From positions 7,299,291 to 7,363,290 of the forward strand of contig NC_089315.1 of assembly GCF_036669915.1 (NCBI RefSeq): a DNA stretch of 64,000 nt. Reading direction: 5' to 3'. Shown piece after piece: positions 39,001 to 59,954 of this stretch. The notes beneath the pieces were generated by a model. It made no database searches. It was given only the letters and a program-made list of their open reading frames with translations, and had not been told where the DNA came from. A program made the position numbers and the translations under genes. The stretch's first letter is position 1. Every line of letters starts with the position of its first letter. This DNA comes from Pocillopora verrucosa (taxonomy: Eukaryota > Cnidaria > Anthozoa > Scleractinia > Pocilloporidae).

Positions 39001-42000
39001 CTATGTAATTGCTTTTATTTTGATGTCTGTTAAGGGCATCCCCTATTTCTCTTCTTTAGAGTGAATTACTTGTTGCCTTTTTGACATGTATATTTTGACA
39101 GTTCCATTTGCTTGCAGTTGTATTTCCTTGCTCTCGTCTGTACAACTTTTACTAAATCAAAGCGTAGTTTTTTAAAGTATTAAATTTGATATTGCATGTG
39201 CCAATCGTATGTTTTGGTGACTACCAACCTGAGTGACAATTTAAAAGTACCCAAACTTATTGATTATTTTATGTTCATAGAAAACTCTCGTTAAATGCTA
39301 CGAGAGAGATGGCTTATCAGAATTTATTACTCCAGATATTGTAAGTCATGCCAAATAAAACTGCTAATATATTTAATTGCCTTAAGGGTAATTTTCTGAT
39401 CAATATCTCAACTATTAGTGGTCAGTTCAATATAGTGCTGTATATGTAGATGAAAGGTACTTAGAGATGTAAAGTAAATTTATTGGTACAAGGTAGTTTT
39501 AATAGCAACATAGTTATGAGTTCTATCTCATTTAATCAAGAGATATTAAAAAATTCAATGCCTATAAGATATTTCTGCAGTTGTGGAGGTAAATCAGTGT
39601 TAGAATATGGTAAGTAAAAAAGGGTTCATTATTGTGCTTTTTGATGTAGAATTTTCTGTTTAAATTTACGCCTAGAAATTTCATTGATGAGATATTGGAT
39701 TTGAAATGAGGCACTTTGAAGTTGAAGGGTTGTTAAGAGGGAAATTATCATGTAATGAACACTGTGTGTAGTGAGTAACACTGGTAATCCAAGCACTGTG
39801 ATAGAAGAATAGACTAAGCAGATGACTTTTGTACCAACATAAGGCAACTGCTTCTGAAAATAAAGGGGGTAAGTTTCTAGAGAAACTGGTACTGCGTCGG
39901 TGGCAGAGTATAACAGGGTAATACGGTATTATCAACTGAGTTGATAACATAAATTGCTTACAGTAAAGAGTTTCAAAGCTGACGTTTTATGCGTTAGCCC
40001 TTCGTCAGAGCGAATTGCTTCTGAAATAGATGAGCAGAATTTAGTTATTCTCTACGTACATTTAATGTTTATCTTTCTTTTGCAGATATCTTTGAGCCAT
40101 CGGAAGATGCTGGCTTTATTGATATTCAAGATGGTGATGCCATTTCTGAGAGCAGTGACACTGAGGTTGTGGCACACACCAGAGAAGAGATACAGTATGA
40201 CAATCCAGAAACATCAAGCGAAAGTGATAGTGAGAATGAAGGAAACCAGGGTCCTCCCCCATTGGATAGTGATGAGGATGACGATGAGGGTAGTGATGTT
40301 GACGGTATTGACGGCCCCCCTCCATTGCACAGCGATGATAACGCTGAGAACACAGATAATGGAGATGAGCTGGTTACCTCACCTGACAGTGGTAGCAGGG
40401 AGGATTTGAGCTCCAGGAGAGCCCCTGTACCCAGAGAAAGGAGAGGCGTGAAGAGTTCTGATGACTCTGACAGTGATAGTGAAAGAGAAGTGCCTCCACC
40501 TCTTGATAGTGAAGATGAAGGAGAAGAAAATGATTCCAGAAGCCCTGCTGTAGAAGCTGCCGAAAGTGCTGATGTGGATTCTGTTGGAGGTTATGCTCAT
40601 GATTCACCAGCTGAAGATGCGAATGATAATGACGATGAGCAGCCTGGTGGTAAGTTTGATGAAGATGACGATGACGAAGAGGAGGAGGAACAACCTATCA
40701 GTAATGATGGTAATGCTGACGATGGTGATAATGACGACAAGAAGGAAGAAGAAGATGTTGAGGTAGTGCCGCAGTCTCCTAGGCCTGTCACACCTGAATC
40801 TGAAAATTCAGAGGAAGGTGAACTGTCTGATTCATCTCGAGAAGTTGAGACGCAGATTCCAAAGCAGGATCAGTCTGACGACCCTGATGACGATGTTGAG
40901 GATGATAAAGAGAGTGATCATGAAGCAGTTTTGGATACAATAGAAAACGAAAATGTCGCGTCTATTGCTGATGAGGTTAGCAGCTCTTTAGTCCCAGTCG
41001 AGGAATCGCACGAAGACGAAAAAGAGGAAAGCGAGGATGAAGGTGAAACTGGAGATACAGTTGGCGGTGAATTTGATGAGAAAGGTACTGTAAAATCTGA
41101 TCATGACCACAATGTTTCACATACTTTTAGAGAAGAAGAGGCGCGTCATGATGATAGCGATCACGATAGTGACGAGTCACAAGAATTTGTTCCCATTGAA
41201 GACGACAATGAATTGGAATGGGATGTAGAAGATTTTGATGTTCCTGAACACAAAACTGTTAAAAGGACTTCAAAGGTGAATAAAGAAGTTCAAGAGGTTG
41301 ACAAATTGAAAAAGACTTTTCTGGACACTCTAAAGAGTGAAGCAGAAGGTATGAAGGTTGTCAGAACTGAACAGAAAGCTGATTCAAAGAAAAAGGTTGA
41401 TAAAGGAGTAAGAGAAAAGAAAATTCTTGAAGACGATAAGGAACGTGCACTTGGTAGTTCAAAAGATTTGGAAACTAAAGATTTAAAACCTGAGTCTGGA
41501 AAATATCCTAGAAAGGTAACAAAAGATAATCCAGGTAATAATGAACACGTGAAAGTTGAAAAGAAAGTTGTCAAGGATTTGGTGGTCAAAGATAAATCAA
41601 AAACTGTAGTCTCTTCAAAGCCAGTTGACAATGCAGCAAAGCCGAAGAAAGGAAAACTGAAAGCTGCAGATAAGAATCTAGAGGAAACGAATAAGCAACA
41701 GACTGAAAAACTTAAGAAGGGTTTTAAAGAAAGCTCAAAAGTAACTAAAACATCCGCCATGGAAAGGGAAGGAATTTCTAAAGCTGGGAATGTTAAGTCT
41801 GCCTCAGTTTCGTCATTGCCTATTGGTGCGGATGTGCAGCGGAGAAATCAGCCAACAAAAGAGAAGAAGAAAACAAGGCCAGTCAGTGATTTTCGCGCTG
41901 ATTCTCGTTCACATAACCAGACAGACGAGGTGCATGTAGCTGCTAATCAACCAAGAAAGGAAGCGAAGAAACCGCGGAAAAGTGACAGTGACTCAACATC

Positions 42001-45000
42001 GGACTCGTTAACAAGGAAAAAACCACAGAAAACAACTTCGTCTGAATCTGTATCTTCCAAGAAACAGAAATCTAGTTCGACCACTACAACTACGCGCGGG
42101 GAAAGAGAAAAGTCCTCAGAAAAAGCAGAGGTGAGAAAAAACAAATCTAAAAGGACTGTGAGTAAGCCCGATGAATCTGATCAGGAAGAGGAAATCAGTC
42201 GTGAAAGGAAGAAACGGAGCGATGCACCGGTTAAAAATCCAGGTGAATCGAAATCCAAACCGAGAGGAAGACCGACGAGTAATGGTCACCTTTCGAGTTC
42301 ACAAGAAAAACTTTCCTTTCATTCTGGTCACCACGATCAAAGCCCCAGGGAACATGGTCTCAGGGGTCATCTTGCGAGGGACCATGTTGCTAAGGACCAC
42401 AGTTTGAGGGACAATGTTACTAAGGATCACACTGCCAGGGGCCATGGTAGTAGGGAGCGCATTGCAAGGGACCATGGTAGCAGGGAGAACGTTGCTAGAG
42501 ACCATGGTATCAGAGAGCATGATGCTAGGGATCATGGTAATAGGGACCATGTTCCTAGAGAACGTGGCACTCACAAGCACAGTGGCCACACCCATGATCG
42601 AAGCAAACACGTCTGGCTTTGCAGAGATGATGAGATCCATAAACTCATTGCACAAAAGGCTTCCTTGTTAAAGGAATACGAGTCAGGAAGCTTGGCTGGC
42701 AGGAAAGTTTGTGAGTAAATAATTGTATGATATTTAACAATTATTAAACGCCGGTGAAGGGAAGTCGCGATCAATAAATTTGGTTCCTTTCCCTAAAGTA
42801 GGCGAGGAGCAGCGCGAGGTGGAAGCGAGAGGAGGAGCGTGACTCGTCCGTCGTGCGTGTATCGTTGCCTGCCGTCCGTTGAAAAAAGCGTAAAAAAGGA
42901 TTAGGTCTATCCTGAAAGCAATGCGTCCTGGCTAACAAGGTATGGTTGGGTTATGGAGCATGTTGCCTGACCCTCTGAAACGGCGGCTACGAAAGAGACT
43001 ATAGATAGTACGTGGAACAAACTCAGTGCCCTTCTTACGTTTGACTTCGGCTGCTTGTTTTTCACCTTGGGTCAGTTATGTTATGATGTGCTTTTAGTTT
43101 CAGGACACAAGAGTCGTCACAAGCGGGAAGAGGATCCTGCCGATCTGCCTGACGTGGGATTCGTTGGCAGCAAACCGAACAGAAGACAAACGAGACCGAT
43201 GAGCGAGGTCATCCCAGGTGGTGTTCCTTACAGCTCTCGGAGGAAGGATAAGCGTCAATCTCTGCAGCTTTCATACACTGGATCGTCAACAGATGACGAC
43301 GAACGCACGAACAGGGCAGCAGAGGTAAAGAAAACGGGAACTTTTGCGGTGGGACTAGCGTCACGTAACATCGAGTATTCGGAACCAGCAGGAGAGAGTG
43401 ACTCGGAACACGAGGAGACTTGTGAATATTGTGCTGCAGAGAAGGTATGGAGCAGTTAGATTCTGTTCTCATCTCAGTCCGCGTAACTTCTAGAATATCT
43501 TTCTTTTTTTTTTTTTCATTTAACCAAGCTCAATTTTCACTGTCTTATCCTATTTGCTGTCTGAATTGCTGATCCTAGCAATATGCATAACGCTTTTCAC
43601 GTGTGACCCTAAAAATGGCGTTGCTTGTCATGGAGTTCGGTATAGTTCAATGGTGAAACATCGGGACTCGGAATCCGACGGTGTAGGGCTCGATTCCTCA
43701 TGGCAACTCAGATTTTATTTCTTTGACCCTCACTCGTGACAACACGAACATAAGACGTCCTTACTGAAAACGTTACCTTTTAAAAAAAATTTAAGACATC
43801 ACTGAGTAAACCAATTTAGGCCGTGGACGAACTTGCAATTCTGAAGTTGCGATTTCAGACCTCCAAAGAAGCTAAAATGTCCAAATCGCAATTAAAATCT
43901 CAATTTTTGTGGTGTGAGCTTTTTCCTTTTTTTGCCTTCTACTCCGTCTTCGTATTTACCCCCGCATTATCACAACACACTCAAAGAAATACTCGCTTCT
44001 ATGTTGACTGAAGGTTCTGTGTTACATATGGTACTTCAGCACAGTTCTAACCTACACTTACAGTTTTCTTATCACGTTTTTCCTACACCGTACTGTTACA
44101 GTTGTCTTGTACTCAAAAGCAAGACCTCACTGAATTCTTCCTCCCTTTACAGTAACTTTCTTGACTTTCTCCAACTTGAACCTTAGACTTCATCTCATCT
44201 TTGTCTTGCAAGGATTGAGAGAAATAGTCGACAAAAGTGAAAACTGGAAGACAAACTTAACTTCAATCTAACTGTGTCTTTATTTTCTCTTTTCCTTGGC
44301 TCTCCACGTTGTGTCTGTATTTGCTGGTTGTTTTAAGATGACTTGGCATGAGTATGTAAAGAGCTGTAAGCAGGCCGTGACCCAACGCCGGGGGCAGCAG
44401 GACTGTGATGATTCCCGAACTCTCCCTCTTCCACCGCTTCAAACCTTCCGCTTGCCGGGACCTTTCTTTGACTCATCTGTAAGTTACTTCCATGCGTCAG
44501 ATTTTGAACTAAGTGCTGGCATACATTTTTCCCGTCTCGATACACTTTCTTCATAAGAGATTATATTCCTGACAAATCTTCATCGTAAACTGCTCACATG
44601 TCTGTATTTTATAGACGGCTTTATTCATTTATTTCATAAATGTTGAACAGTCTCTCATGTGTGCTTCATTTTGTTTTGTTTTGTTTTTTTAATTTTTTTT
44701 CTTTTGACGCCGCCGTTTAGTTGAGTTTGAAATCCTTCTATCTGGTTAAATTATTTATCATCGTATTTCTTGCTAAGAGCGCGGCTGTTCTCGTGAAGTC
44801 GTTTGTTTCCAGTGACTAGCGTCTGACGCTTTCTCCGTTTTATTCCGCTTTCATCCCCTAATCTTGAAGCTTCTCTTGTATTTCTTGATGTTTTTCGCAT
44901 GGATTGGAAAAAGATCTTGGAGTACAGGGGCAAATCATAATACGTGGGAAAGTGGGTGAGGCAAGGAGAGGGTGAGTGGTGGAGGCGGGAAGGGGTTGGG

Positions 45001-57548: not shown

Positions 57549-57805
57549 AAACGTTTATTGCAATGGGAAGCCATCTTCTTCAGTAAAAACTAGTAAGGAA
57601 GGAATTGTTTGGCAAAGTAGAATAATAAAAGTAAAAAATGTGTCACAAAATAGAATAAAAACTATGTGAAAAGTTAAGATCGATATCACAAAGCATCTCT
57701 TGGGCTCTCGTTACAAATGGAAATGCGACAGCCGACCCCATGTGTAGGTAAAAGAAAGCTTTATCTAAGTCAAAGTTCGCGTAAATTGTCCGTACCCCAA
57801 GAATG

Positions 57806-59602
57806 TTAGTGATAAACAAAGTTTTTTCTGGCTTGATGATACTCGGGATCTTGAAAGTTTCTCGCCATGATTGAGAGCTCATTTGAGCGACATTCTTCGA
57901 TGTTCTCCGTGACTTGGTGCTGTGCCTTTTTGTTCTTTTCTCGGACAATGTACGACTGCAAAGGGGTGCGGGCAAGGCACGATGCTTGCTCCTTAATCCA
58001 GCTTTCAAACTCCTCCACACCGTCTCCAACACTTCCGTCCAGAAAACCAATTTCAGCGGCATCAGAGGCTAGGATGGGTTTGGCACTGGACAACAACTCA
58101 TCCGCCTTTTCTTGGCCCACACGCTTTGGCAGAAAGTATGTGTGATATTCTGAACCATAAAGTTTCATTAGCTTATAGTGAGGATTCAGCACCACCCCAT
58201 CACGTGCAAAGGCGAAGTCGCTAGCCAAAGCCAACATGGCCCCACCGGCTCCAGCGTTGCCACGTAATGCTGAGATCGTGATCTTTCTGCTGGAGAAGAT
58301 ACAACGCACGACATCGTTAATAGCATTGATGTTCCTCCATGATTCCTGTACTGGGTCATCTGCTGCTTCGATAACATTAAGGTGGATACCATTGCTGAAC
58401 ACATCTCGGCCACCCATCAGAACCATTACCTTGCAAAAATCATTATTTTCAACCGCCCGCAAAACGGAAACAAGACGCTGACATTGGCTAGTGCTCATAG
58501 CTCCGTTGTAAAACTCGAAGTGTACAAAGCAGACGCCGTCAGATGTCATACTCGTCCAGATGTCCTGAGCTGTGTAAGGATAGGAGCCGTACAGAATAGA
58601 TAGAGAGGGGTCTACCACGGTTGGTGCTTGAGATTTTAACCACATCATAGCAGGAAGTTTGAGCTTGCTCTTCTTCAGGTGTGAAACCCATAGAGCTCCC
58701 CTGCCGCACTTGACCAGAACAGATCCATGGCTTTGGCCCAGTATTTCACCAGGTTTTCCCGGCAGGAATCTAAGTCTTCCTTTCTCCAGACGTGCTCCAA
58801 AGAGGCGAAAATCCTTCGTCCAGTCCCAATCGCTATCTGCTTCTTTTGTTCTAAAGCGACCGACGGCTCCTGGTGCTGAATCAGACATACGAATCTGACA
58901 GGCTATCTCGTCAGCTGGCAATTCCCAGTTCACAGTTCGGTCAGCCTTGGTCATGTTAGGGCGGCAGATTCCCCTCACTTGTGGATTGCTGTAGTTAAGA
59001 GGTCTGGGTGCTTTTCCAACCAGGAGATTATCTATGGCCTCCAGAACAGCTTTCACGGCTGTTTGTGTAACCTCATTCACATACATGCTCGACTTGGTAA
59101 GTGTGTTGACTTCGGGGCGCCTAACAGGAAAGGTTTTGGTGCTCCAAATATCGCCTGCGTCCATCTCCGAGGCCGCTTGAAGGACGCTCACTCCCCATTC
59201 CTCCTCCCTGTCATACAAGGCCCAGTCAATGGAACTCATGCCACGGTCGCCCTCGATTCCAGGATGAACAATCCAGCAAGGGATGTTGGGATTAGAAAAC
59301 ACTTCTTCTGGAATTCGTTTGGTAAGAAATGGACAAAGAATGAGATCGGGTTGGGCATCAAAAGCCAACTTTGTCATCTCTACAGGCTCGTTGATCTCGT
59401 GCACAGTGATGTTATGTTGTCTCTTTCTCAATTCTAGAGCCATCCTTTGGCTGAGGCTGTTGTGCTTGTTTGCGAAGAAAAGGATGTTAAGACTCTTTTT
59501 TGGCTTGAGACTGCATGAGACCGTTGGTCGGTTCAACAAATGGGGTTCAAATCGTCTTGAAAGGACAGGCTGGAAGCGAGGCTTAAGGAAATTTTTCAGC
59601 AT
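57806..59602 (-). CDS. hypX: HypX/HoxX-like fused formyltransferase-crotonase protein
   Basis: One intronless frame of 598 residues. Residues 1 to about 36 are basic and hydroxylated with few acidic residues, fitting a mitochondrial presequence. Residues about 37-320 form a methionyl-tRNA or formyl-THF formyltransferase-like domain with CWIVHPGIEGDRG (His113) and EMDAGDIW (Asp148). The Asn of the classical NxH motif is not at the matching place. Residues about 345-540 form a crotonase (enoyl-CoA hydratase-like) domain with FSNGIHLNVIEAA, ESWRNINAIND, GNAGAGGAMLALASD (448-462) and NPHYKLMKLYGSEY (473-486). This domain order and these motifs are those of bacterial HypX, which moves formyl from formyl-THF to CoA and then releases CO for [NiFe]-hydrogenase assembly. 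Codon use resembles neighbouring genes. A possible 5' UTR splice acceptor lies at 59624 or 59631. Role in this organism is unknown. Confidence 0.88.
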   Translation of the reverse strand: MLKNFLKPRFQPVLSRRFEPHLLNRPTVSCSLKPKKSLNILFFANKHNSLSQRMALELRKRQHNITVHEINEPVEMTKLAFDAQPDLILCPFLTKRIPEEVFSNPNIPCWIVHPGIEGDRGMSSIDWALYDREEEWGVSVLQAASEMDAGDIWSTKTFPVRRPEVNTLTKSSMYVNEVTQTAVKAVLEAIDNLLVGKAPRPLNYSNPQVRGICRPNMTKADRTVNWELPADEIACQIRMSDSAPGAVGRFRTKEADSDWDWTKDFRLFGARLEKGRLRFLPGKPGEILGQSHGSVLVKCGRGALWVSHLKKSKLKLPAMMWLKSQAPTVVDPSLSILYGSYPYTAQDIWTSMTSDGVCFVHFEFYNGAMSTSQCQRLVSVLRAVENNDFCKVMVLMGGRDVFSNGIHLNVIEAADDPVQESWRNINAINDVVRCIFSSRKITISALRGNAGAGGAMLALASDFAFARDGVVLNPHYKLMKLYGSEYHTYFLPKRVGQEKADELLSSAKPILASDAAEIGFLDGSVGDGVEEFESWIKEQASCLARTPLQSYIVREKNKKAQHQVTENIEECRSNELSIMARNFQDPEYHQARKNFVYH

Positions 59603-59954
59603 CGTTATCCTTGCTATCTTCTTCTGAAAACTGAAAGGGAAGGTAGAACGTCAGTGATTACTCAATTATGGAACTTAACCGTTAAATAAAATAAATCATA
59701 GCGAATATAAGCGATCCTCGCAATTATGAACACTACTGAACTAGTAGTTGAAATAAGGCCTGAAAAAAATTCAAGCCCGTAGGGGATTTGAACCTAGGAC
59801 CTTTGCGATACCGGTACAGCGCTATACCAACTGAGCTAAAAAGCCAACTGGGAGCTGGCCATTATGTTGATATCACAAAAATTATGATCAGTTTGCGTAA
59901 AGCGAAACCAGAGTGTTTTCACCGAGTGATTTTCGTCGACATTCATTAAGCGCA
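59603..59954. other. Upstream region of the HypX-like gene
   Basis: A pyrimidine-rich tract ending in CAG at 59631 and again at 59624 (minus strand) suggests a 5' UTR intron, so the true promoter may lie further right. A tRNA-like sequence occupies 59774-59845. Confidence 0.4.
59774..59845 (-). repeat. tRNA-like sequence, SINE head or tRNA pseudogene
   Basis: Minus strand shows a perfect A box TAGCTCAGTTGG and a B box GGTTCAAATCC at tRNA spacing. The 5' and 3' acceptor strands do not pair and the anticodon stem is poor. It is followed by an A/T tail. Confidence 0.45.

Follow-up and report, generated by a model that had tools for sequence, protein, structure and literature searches.

The window, a 64,000-nucleotide stretch of a Pocillopora verrucosa chromosome, carries an intact gene whose product is, judged by its sequence, a HypX-type enzyme; functionally, it does not qualify as a hydrogenase maturation factor. 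HypX in bacteria makes carbon monoxide (CO) for hydrogenases. For the animal protein, there is an even chance that it acts as a formyl-THF:CoA formyltransferase and formyl-CoA decarbonylase working without NiFe hydrogenase.

Architecture of the HypX-type protein

The gene is an uninterrupted fusion frame of 598 codons from ATG to stop on the minus strand (57806..59602), intronless within the frame. The deduced protein contains Formyl_trans_N (residues 75-162), Formyl_trans_C (217-324) and ECH_1 (366-595), each scoring above its curated Pfam cut-off. The first two domains make up the formyltransferase half (approximately residues 38-325; 58628..59491, minus strand), and the third belongs to the crotonase half (approximately residues 350-598; 57809..58555, minus strand), identified by both Pfam and PDB matches. 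Pfam and phmmer thereby confirm the original prediction of a 598-codon frame with formyltransferase and crotonase halves. Among the motifs named in that prediction, VHPGIEGDRG, NGIHLNVIEAA and SWRNINAIND are all present. The fourth, given as NPHYK..LYGSEY, occurs as NPHYKLMKLYGSEY, with a spacer of three residues (LMK) and not two.

The five best distinct PDB sequences found by phmmer are HypX (HoxX) chains, including 6J0P, which align with residues 31-596 at E-values of 1.1e-113 to 2.3e-112. Entry 6J0P and its variants represent Aquifex HypX (PMC6802093), to which the window protein is 43% identical in an alignment that is colinear over almost the full length. This colinearity and the fusion of formyltransferase N- and C-terminal domains to a crotonase place the protein in the HypX family. 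Among the matches listed from NCBIfam (25 out of 66 families) there is no HypX model; they are crotonase and formyltransferase models of a generic kind, none of which comes near its cut-off. The possibility raised at the outset, that ALDH1L, MTFMT or a plain crotonase would be the best match, did not materialise, as HypX ranks first by far. The protein is no member of the ALDH1L, MTFMT or GART families either, with approximately 1e-113 for HypX versus 4.9e-13 for 10-formyl-THF dehydrogenase, the first non-HypX PDB match. It resembles the hydrolase domain of ALDH1L in its Formyl_trans_N/C domains and in the His and Asp of the catalytic triad, but the triad of ALDH1L has a Ser where the animal protein, like HypX, has an Asp (PMC6802093). 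ALDH1L is moreover fused to an aldehyde dehydrogenase and the animal HypX to a crotonase, and a separate ALDH1L gene is present in the genome.

The animal protein thus shares with the HypX/HoxX proteins of Aquifex (6J0P) and Cupriavidus necator the two-domain architecture and the five proposed catalytic residues. It differs from the HypX/HoxX of NiFe-hydrogenase maturation in being encoded by an animal, in a genome where neither the large subunit nor HypD was found, and in having an N-terminal extension. This extension (residues 1-37; 59492..59602, minus strand) is missing in Aquifex HypX, contains nine Lys/Arg and one Asp/Glu, and is basic in both animal copies (see below); it is possibly an organelle-targeting sequence. 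Its amphipathic moment was equalled or exceeded in 922 of 1000 shuffles for the window copy, and in 18 or 9 of 1000, depending on the start chosen, for the second copy. A candidate 3' splice acceptor, a pyrimidine-rich tract followed by CAG (59631..59650, minus strand), was found by eye 28 bases 5' of the ATG and suggests an upstream intron. A candidate polyadenylation signal, AATAAA (57554..57559, minus strand), likewise found by eye, lies about 250 bases past the stop codon. Just 5' of the gene, a tRNA-like stretch with A-box-like and B-box-like motifs (59770-59846, minus strand) is not called by ARAGORN and occurs once within the window; it is perhaps a tRNA-derived SINE.

Catalytic residues and the decarbonylase pocket

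In Aquifex HypX, His74, Asp80 and Asp109 have been proposed to serve formyl transfer to CoA, and Tyr416 and Glu426 to serve decarbonylation (PMC6802093, Muraki et al. 2019); the abstract of that study states that direct experimental results were then still lacking. Both animal copies have equivalents of all five residues, as do 80/80 bacterial rows (the best 80 of 228 relatives), and the loss of catalytic residues that would have spoken against a HypX assignment did not occur. The formyl-transfer triad corresponds to His113, Asp119 and Asp148 (59159..59266, minus strand). The decarbonylase pocket, NPHYKLMKLYGSEYHTY (residues 473-489; 58136..58186, minus strand), retains Tyr476 and Glu485 as counterparts of Tyr416 and Glu426.

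Within NPHYKLMKLYGSEYHTY, however, both animal copies have Lys480, four positions past Tyr476, in place of Gly420, and His487, eleven positions past it, in place of Trp428 (Aquifex numbering). Gly420 and Trp428 are invariant in 78/78 full-length bacterial rows from the best 80 of 228, the truncated L072 and L081 being left out of this count. Gly420 is part of a loop (residues 419-423) close to the pantetheine arm of CoA in Aquifex HypX (PMC6802093). Altogether, 39 of the 41 columns that are invariant across the 78 full-length rows are kept in the animal copies, and by a leave-one-out yardstick 18/78 bacterial rows also deviate at one or two otherwise invariant columns. The number of departures is therefore ordinary, and their location in the decarbonylase pocket is notable. 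The animal copies lack both Gly420 and Trp428, a pair that we use as a criterion of our own with no published definition; their filing by sequence is unaffected. Some CoA contacts are also changed (R131 to Val, Q195 to Ala, R9 to Lys), at positions that vary among bacteria too. A one-residue gap between Tyr476 and Glu485 relative to Aquifex was considered as an oddity and rejected, as it is shared by 42/80 bacterial rows (best 80 of 228).

Proposed reaction and its alternatives

Bacterial HypX yields formyl-CoA and CO in vitro, according to a review citing Schulz et al. 2020 (PMC12134894). In the animal enzyme, the N-terminal half would use 10-formyl-THF to formylate bound CoA and so produce formyl-CoA. 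This step is well supported because the triad is intact, and the animal protein quite probably forms formyl-CoA. The crotonase half would then break down formyl-CoA, most likely to CO and CoA. The conservation of Tyr476 and Glu485 speaks for decarbonylation, whereas Lys480 and His487 detract from it; as both departures fall in the decarbonylase pocket, the arguments for and against CO release appear evenly balanced. The CO, or the formyl-CoA, would serve a hydrogenase-independent purpose, for example gas signalling through heme proteins. Signalling of this kind would be the bold reading, and production of formate or formyl-CoA the plain one.

The same pocket changes lend themselves to a reading in which formyl-CoA is made and then hydrolysed to formate and CoA, or passed on, without any CO. 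The protein would then be a CoA-dependent formyl-THF hydrolase. The intact formyl-transfer triad suits this reading equally, the replacements of Gly by Lys480 and of Trp by His487 are confined to the decarbonylase pocket and common to both copies, and the added His or Lys could favour attack by water. Yet Tyr476 and Glu485 are kept, and mutation of their counterparts in Ralstonia gives a HypX-minus phenotype (PMC6802093). Disposal of formyl-THF is, in addition, already covered by ALDH1L. Hydrolysis is thus an unlikely outcome, to be taken seriously all the same.

The crotonase half could alternatively act on another acyl-CoA substrate, making the protein a formyl- or acyl-transfer enzyme of an unspecified pathway. 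Crotonases are catalytically versatile, and some bacterial HypX genes have acyl-CoA dehydrogenase genes or an acyl-carrier-protein gene in their vicinity. Against this stand the 39 of 41 family-invariant columns kept in the animal copies, the named catalytic residues among them, and neighbouring genes in the animal that point to no pathway; a change of substrate is accordingly quite improbable.

Hydrogenase, formyl-group enzymes and heme oxygenase in the coral genome

Maturation of a NiFe hydrogenase, whether the animal's own or that of a symbiont living in it, is the role for which the HypX family is named (PMC6802093, PMC12134894). In an exon-wise six-frame family search of the 353 Mb genome, neither PF00374 (the NiFe-hydrogenase large subunit) nor PF01924 (HypD) was matched. 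These two families constituted the search for hydrogenase maturation. The exon-by-exon search of the same genome did recover heme oxygenase, formyltransferases and GFP, and among 14 prokaryote genomes used as controls, five were positive for PF00374, four for PF01924 and two for PF03707 (MHYT). An organism that uses HypX as a functional hydrogenase maturation factor would be expected to have the large subunit and HypD as well, and neither was found here. HypX forms complexes with HypC and HypD in vitro (PMC6802093), which makes supply across membranes to a symbiont implausible. A role in hydrogenase maturation is therefore very unlikely, and the absence of PF00374 and HypD matches makes a purpose other than hydrogenase likely, as the original prediction had supposed.

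That prediction had also considered disposal of formyl groups and production of CO without heme oxygenase. Eight Formyl_trans_N matches in the genome correspond to five genes, namely ALDH1L, a GART-like gene, an MTFMT-like gene and the two HypX copies. The first exon of ALDH1L matches 10-formyl-THF dehydrogenase with an E-value of 4.7e-57, while the GART-like and MTFMT-like names are our own assignments from translated exons. The family search also found heme oxygenase, the enzyme to which endogenous CO in animals is mainly attributed. With ALDH1L, the GART-like and MTFMT-like genes and heme oxygenase all present, neither formyl disposal nor CO supply depends on HypX alone. The case for formyl disposal as an essential role loses weight in the presence of ALDH1L, and the presence of heme oxygenase likewise weakens the case that CO must come from another source.

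Second copy, selection and chromosomal setting

A search of the 353 Mb, 52-contig assembly returned one further match, an intact HypX copy of 83% identity at C4:7962870-7964660, about 605 kb away on the same 31 Mb contig as the window, which spans C4:7299291-7363290. Over 597 aligned codons, the two copies differ with a dN of 0.097 and a dS of 0.488 (NG86), and dN/dS is 0.20-0.25 by three methods (NG86; YN00, about 0.25; LWL85, about 0.23). Both copies are under purifying selection; a second intact copy with such a ratio identifies a selected gene and not a chance frame. The formyltransferase half is the most conserved part, with 90% identical residues versus 82% in the crotonase half. DNA similarity between the copies is confined to the coding frame (1706 aligned columns, 87%) when compared with 1.5 kb flanks of the second copy, which would fit either a retrocopy or an old duplication. 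Shortly 5' of the start of the second copy, an acceptor-like TTTGATTTGTCAG was recognised by eye.

The surroundings of the gene form a eukaryotic landscape, since the window also carries a galactosyltransferase frame, TPR frames and an Mpp10 gene split over two frames (Pfam). Elsewhere in the assembly, at least 74 GFP-family exon matches lie in two regions of contig C1 (670362-884433 and 28361248-28791301). A two-exon GFP-family peptide has amFP486 as its best solved relative, followed by further fluorescent proteins, all of which we take to come from corals and anemones. The GFP-family exons in the assembly and the Mpp10 exons and galactosyltransferase in the window support an animal origin of the sequence, and the abundance of GFP-family exons points to an anthozoan cnidarian. 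The HypX-type gene is thus an animal gene, on an animal chromosome with animal genes around it, as had been predicted. The two exon clusters on contig C1 represent an expansion of fluorescent-protein genes. The window further contains an 849-aa frame (40169-42718, plus strand), acidic and then basic in its low-complexity sequence; it includes a 30-bp tandem repeat (42372-42546) and lacks any Pfam match.

Bacterial contamination or a misassembled insert, to which one might ascribe a GC3 of 0.50 above the 0.34 and 0.41 of two neighbouring genes and relatives that are all bacterial (in collections that contain no animals), is hardly credible given two copies, diverged and intact, that are separated by about 605 kb on a 31 Mb contig, split Mpp10 exons in the window, a best bacterial identity of just 43-45%, and an N-terminal extension and acceptor-like sequence 5' of both copies.

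HypX and hydrogenase in bacteria

A scan of genome contigs found 228 relatives from many phyla, of which the best 80 were kept; among viral contigs, 170 pattern matches included no relative. The highest bacterial identity to the animal protein is 43% by tblastn and 45% in an alignment of 45 rows; alignment A2 leaves out L025, L036, L044, L049, L056 and L068. In a crude motif scan, only part of the best 80 of 228 loci had hydrogenase or Hyp motifs in their flanks. Whole genomes were then searched for PF00374 for 50 chosen loci out of the best 80 (of 228), corresponding to 49 genomes. In 42 of the 49 genomes, the HypX flanks are free of HypD, HypF and full large-subunit motifs, although three of these 42 loci have a weak HypE-like motif or a large-subunit C-terminal motif. 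Among these 42 genomes, 17 gave no PF00374 match, one gave a match below the cut-off only and 24 matched, some of them weakly; the hydrogenase-adjacent control genomes matched in 7/7 cases.

Some of the PF00374-negative genomes are metagenome-assembled genomes (MAGs), in which absence may reflect incompleteness. Titles without a MAG mark include Paenibacillus alkalitolerans, Marinomonas transparens, Moritella, Marinagarivorans algicola, Lysobacter antibioticus, two Amycolatopsis and Chromobacterium piscinae. HypX without hydrogenase is not rare among these bacterial relatives, and a hydrogenase-independent HypX has bacterial precedent. The animal gene is like these hydrogenase-free bacterial HypX genes (Paenibacillus, Kordia, Marinomonas, Moritella, Crenothrix, Amycolatopsis, Chromobacterium and others) in that no PF00374 match accompanies it, but it differs by its pocket changes, and the family search found no MHYT alongside it and the trees show no phylogenetic tie to them.

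Two families recur as neighbours of HypX, mostly in methanotrophs. The first, c1, is a DJ-1/AraC-type regulator according to a Pfam match in L030 only, and occurs in L011, L016, L018, L030, L042, L044, L055, L056, L062, L063 and L069. The second, c4, is assigned to AAA_26 by Pfam in L018 and L055 only, and occurs in L018, L044, L055, L062, L063 and L069. A further HypX (L101), annotated as 'hydrogenase maturation protein', is located on plasmid pBRH01 of the fungal endosymbiont Mycetohabitans rhizoxinica, near genes for an acyl carrier protein, an amino acid:ACP ligase and an acyl-CoA dehydrogenase; a hydrogenase gene is absent from the annotation of this 17.6 kb stretch.

MHYT proteins as neighbours of bacterial HypX

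The MHYT domain enables CoxC to sense CO, with copper (PMC11347149); that paper mentions neither HypX nor hydrogenase. With a profile derived from three MHYT proteins encoded near HypX, an MHYT-domain protein was detected near HypX in 19/80 loci (best 80 of 228), and in 0/23 of those loci within the same 80 that have HypD, HypF or large-subunit motifs. The distance between the MHYT gene and the HypX frame is at most 1.2 kb in 18 of the 19 (L004, L011, L015, L016, L017, L018, L019, L021, L031, L052, L057, L058, L059, L060, L066, L071, L074 and L079). The remaining locus, L069, is doubtful, with MHYT at a distance of 2.3 kb, on the opposite strand and within a long frame. Pfam confirmed PF03707 in 6/19 MHYT loci, L060 being left out of the Pfam scan of HypX neighbours. 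The sample was picked by similarity to the animal protein and includes near copies.

Three arrangements are found. In seven loci of Methylococcales, MHYT is downstream of HypX on the same strand, and the MHYT proteins of L004, L016 and L021 are histidine kinases (Pfam). The gene between HypX and the kinase resembles a response-regulator receiver by eye and has no match in Pfam, NCBIfam or PDB. In two loci of Pseudomonadales, including Marinagarivorans, a stand-alone MHYT gene is upstream on the same strand. In nine loci of Kitasatospora/Streptomyces, MHYT is on the opposite strand, tail to tail with HypX, so that no shared promoter is implied in these actinomycetes and a link between the two genes does not necessarily follow.

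This association suggests that some bacteria may use HypX to produce CO for signalling. It does not prove independence from hydrogenase, as 9 of the 13 MHYT loci with a searched genome match PF00374 and only four do not (L015, L017, L031 and L057). In the coral genome itself, the family search gave no match to PF03707. A wider reading holds that HypX is a general CO-signal synthase, linked to MHYT in bacteria, and that this cnidarian makes endogenous, heme-independent CO from one-carbon folate through the two copies. It is given lower weight because of the nine tail-to-tail actinomycete loci and the nine of 13 MHYT genomes that match PF00374, and is at present tentative and rather doubtful.

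Phylogenetic placement of the animal pair

The position of the animal pair, with a branch of 1.2-1.3 changes per column, shifts between trees. A quick tree of 80 rows places it near Amycolatopsis/Chromobacterium, and a careful tree of 61 rows places it beside Marinagarivorans (94/85), both being long-branched. The truncated L072 and L081 are absent from both trees, and the 61-row tree is also without L049, L073 and 17 near copies; the sample comprises bacterial rows and the animal pair, with no other eukaryote. Hydrogenase-adjacent HypX sequences cluster strongly (21 rows, 4 changes versus 17.5 in shuffles), counting L045 (Aquifex), which is labelled hydrogenase-adjacent in the 61-row tree though its flanks are without a motif. 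A constraint that grouped the pair with 17 rows taken from the hydrogenase-linked clade raised the likelihood by 11.65 over that of the free tree (p-AU 0.736). An origin from the hydrogenase-linked clade may thus even fit better, and the tree gives no grounds for linking the animal gene with hydrogenase-free HypX. The gene may have entered eukaryotes by one old transfer or may be an old eukaryotic gene. Records named 'hydrogenase maturation factor HoxX-like' presumably exist for cnidarians in the databases.

Significance

In open-licence PubMed Central, no title or abstract opening among the matches listed deals with an animal HypX or with a link between HypX and MHYT. The MHYT proteins that adjoin HypX in three bacterial groups lead to the testable hypothesis that CO is made there as a signal. 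If the animal protein were indeed a folate-based enzyme producing CO or formyl-CoA, it would open a different route from one-carbon metabolism to gas signalling.
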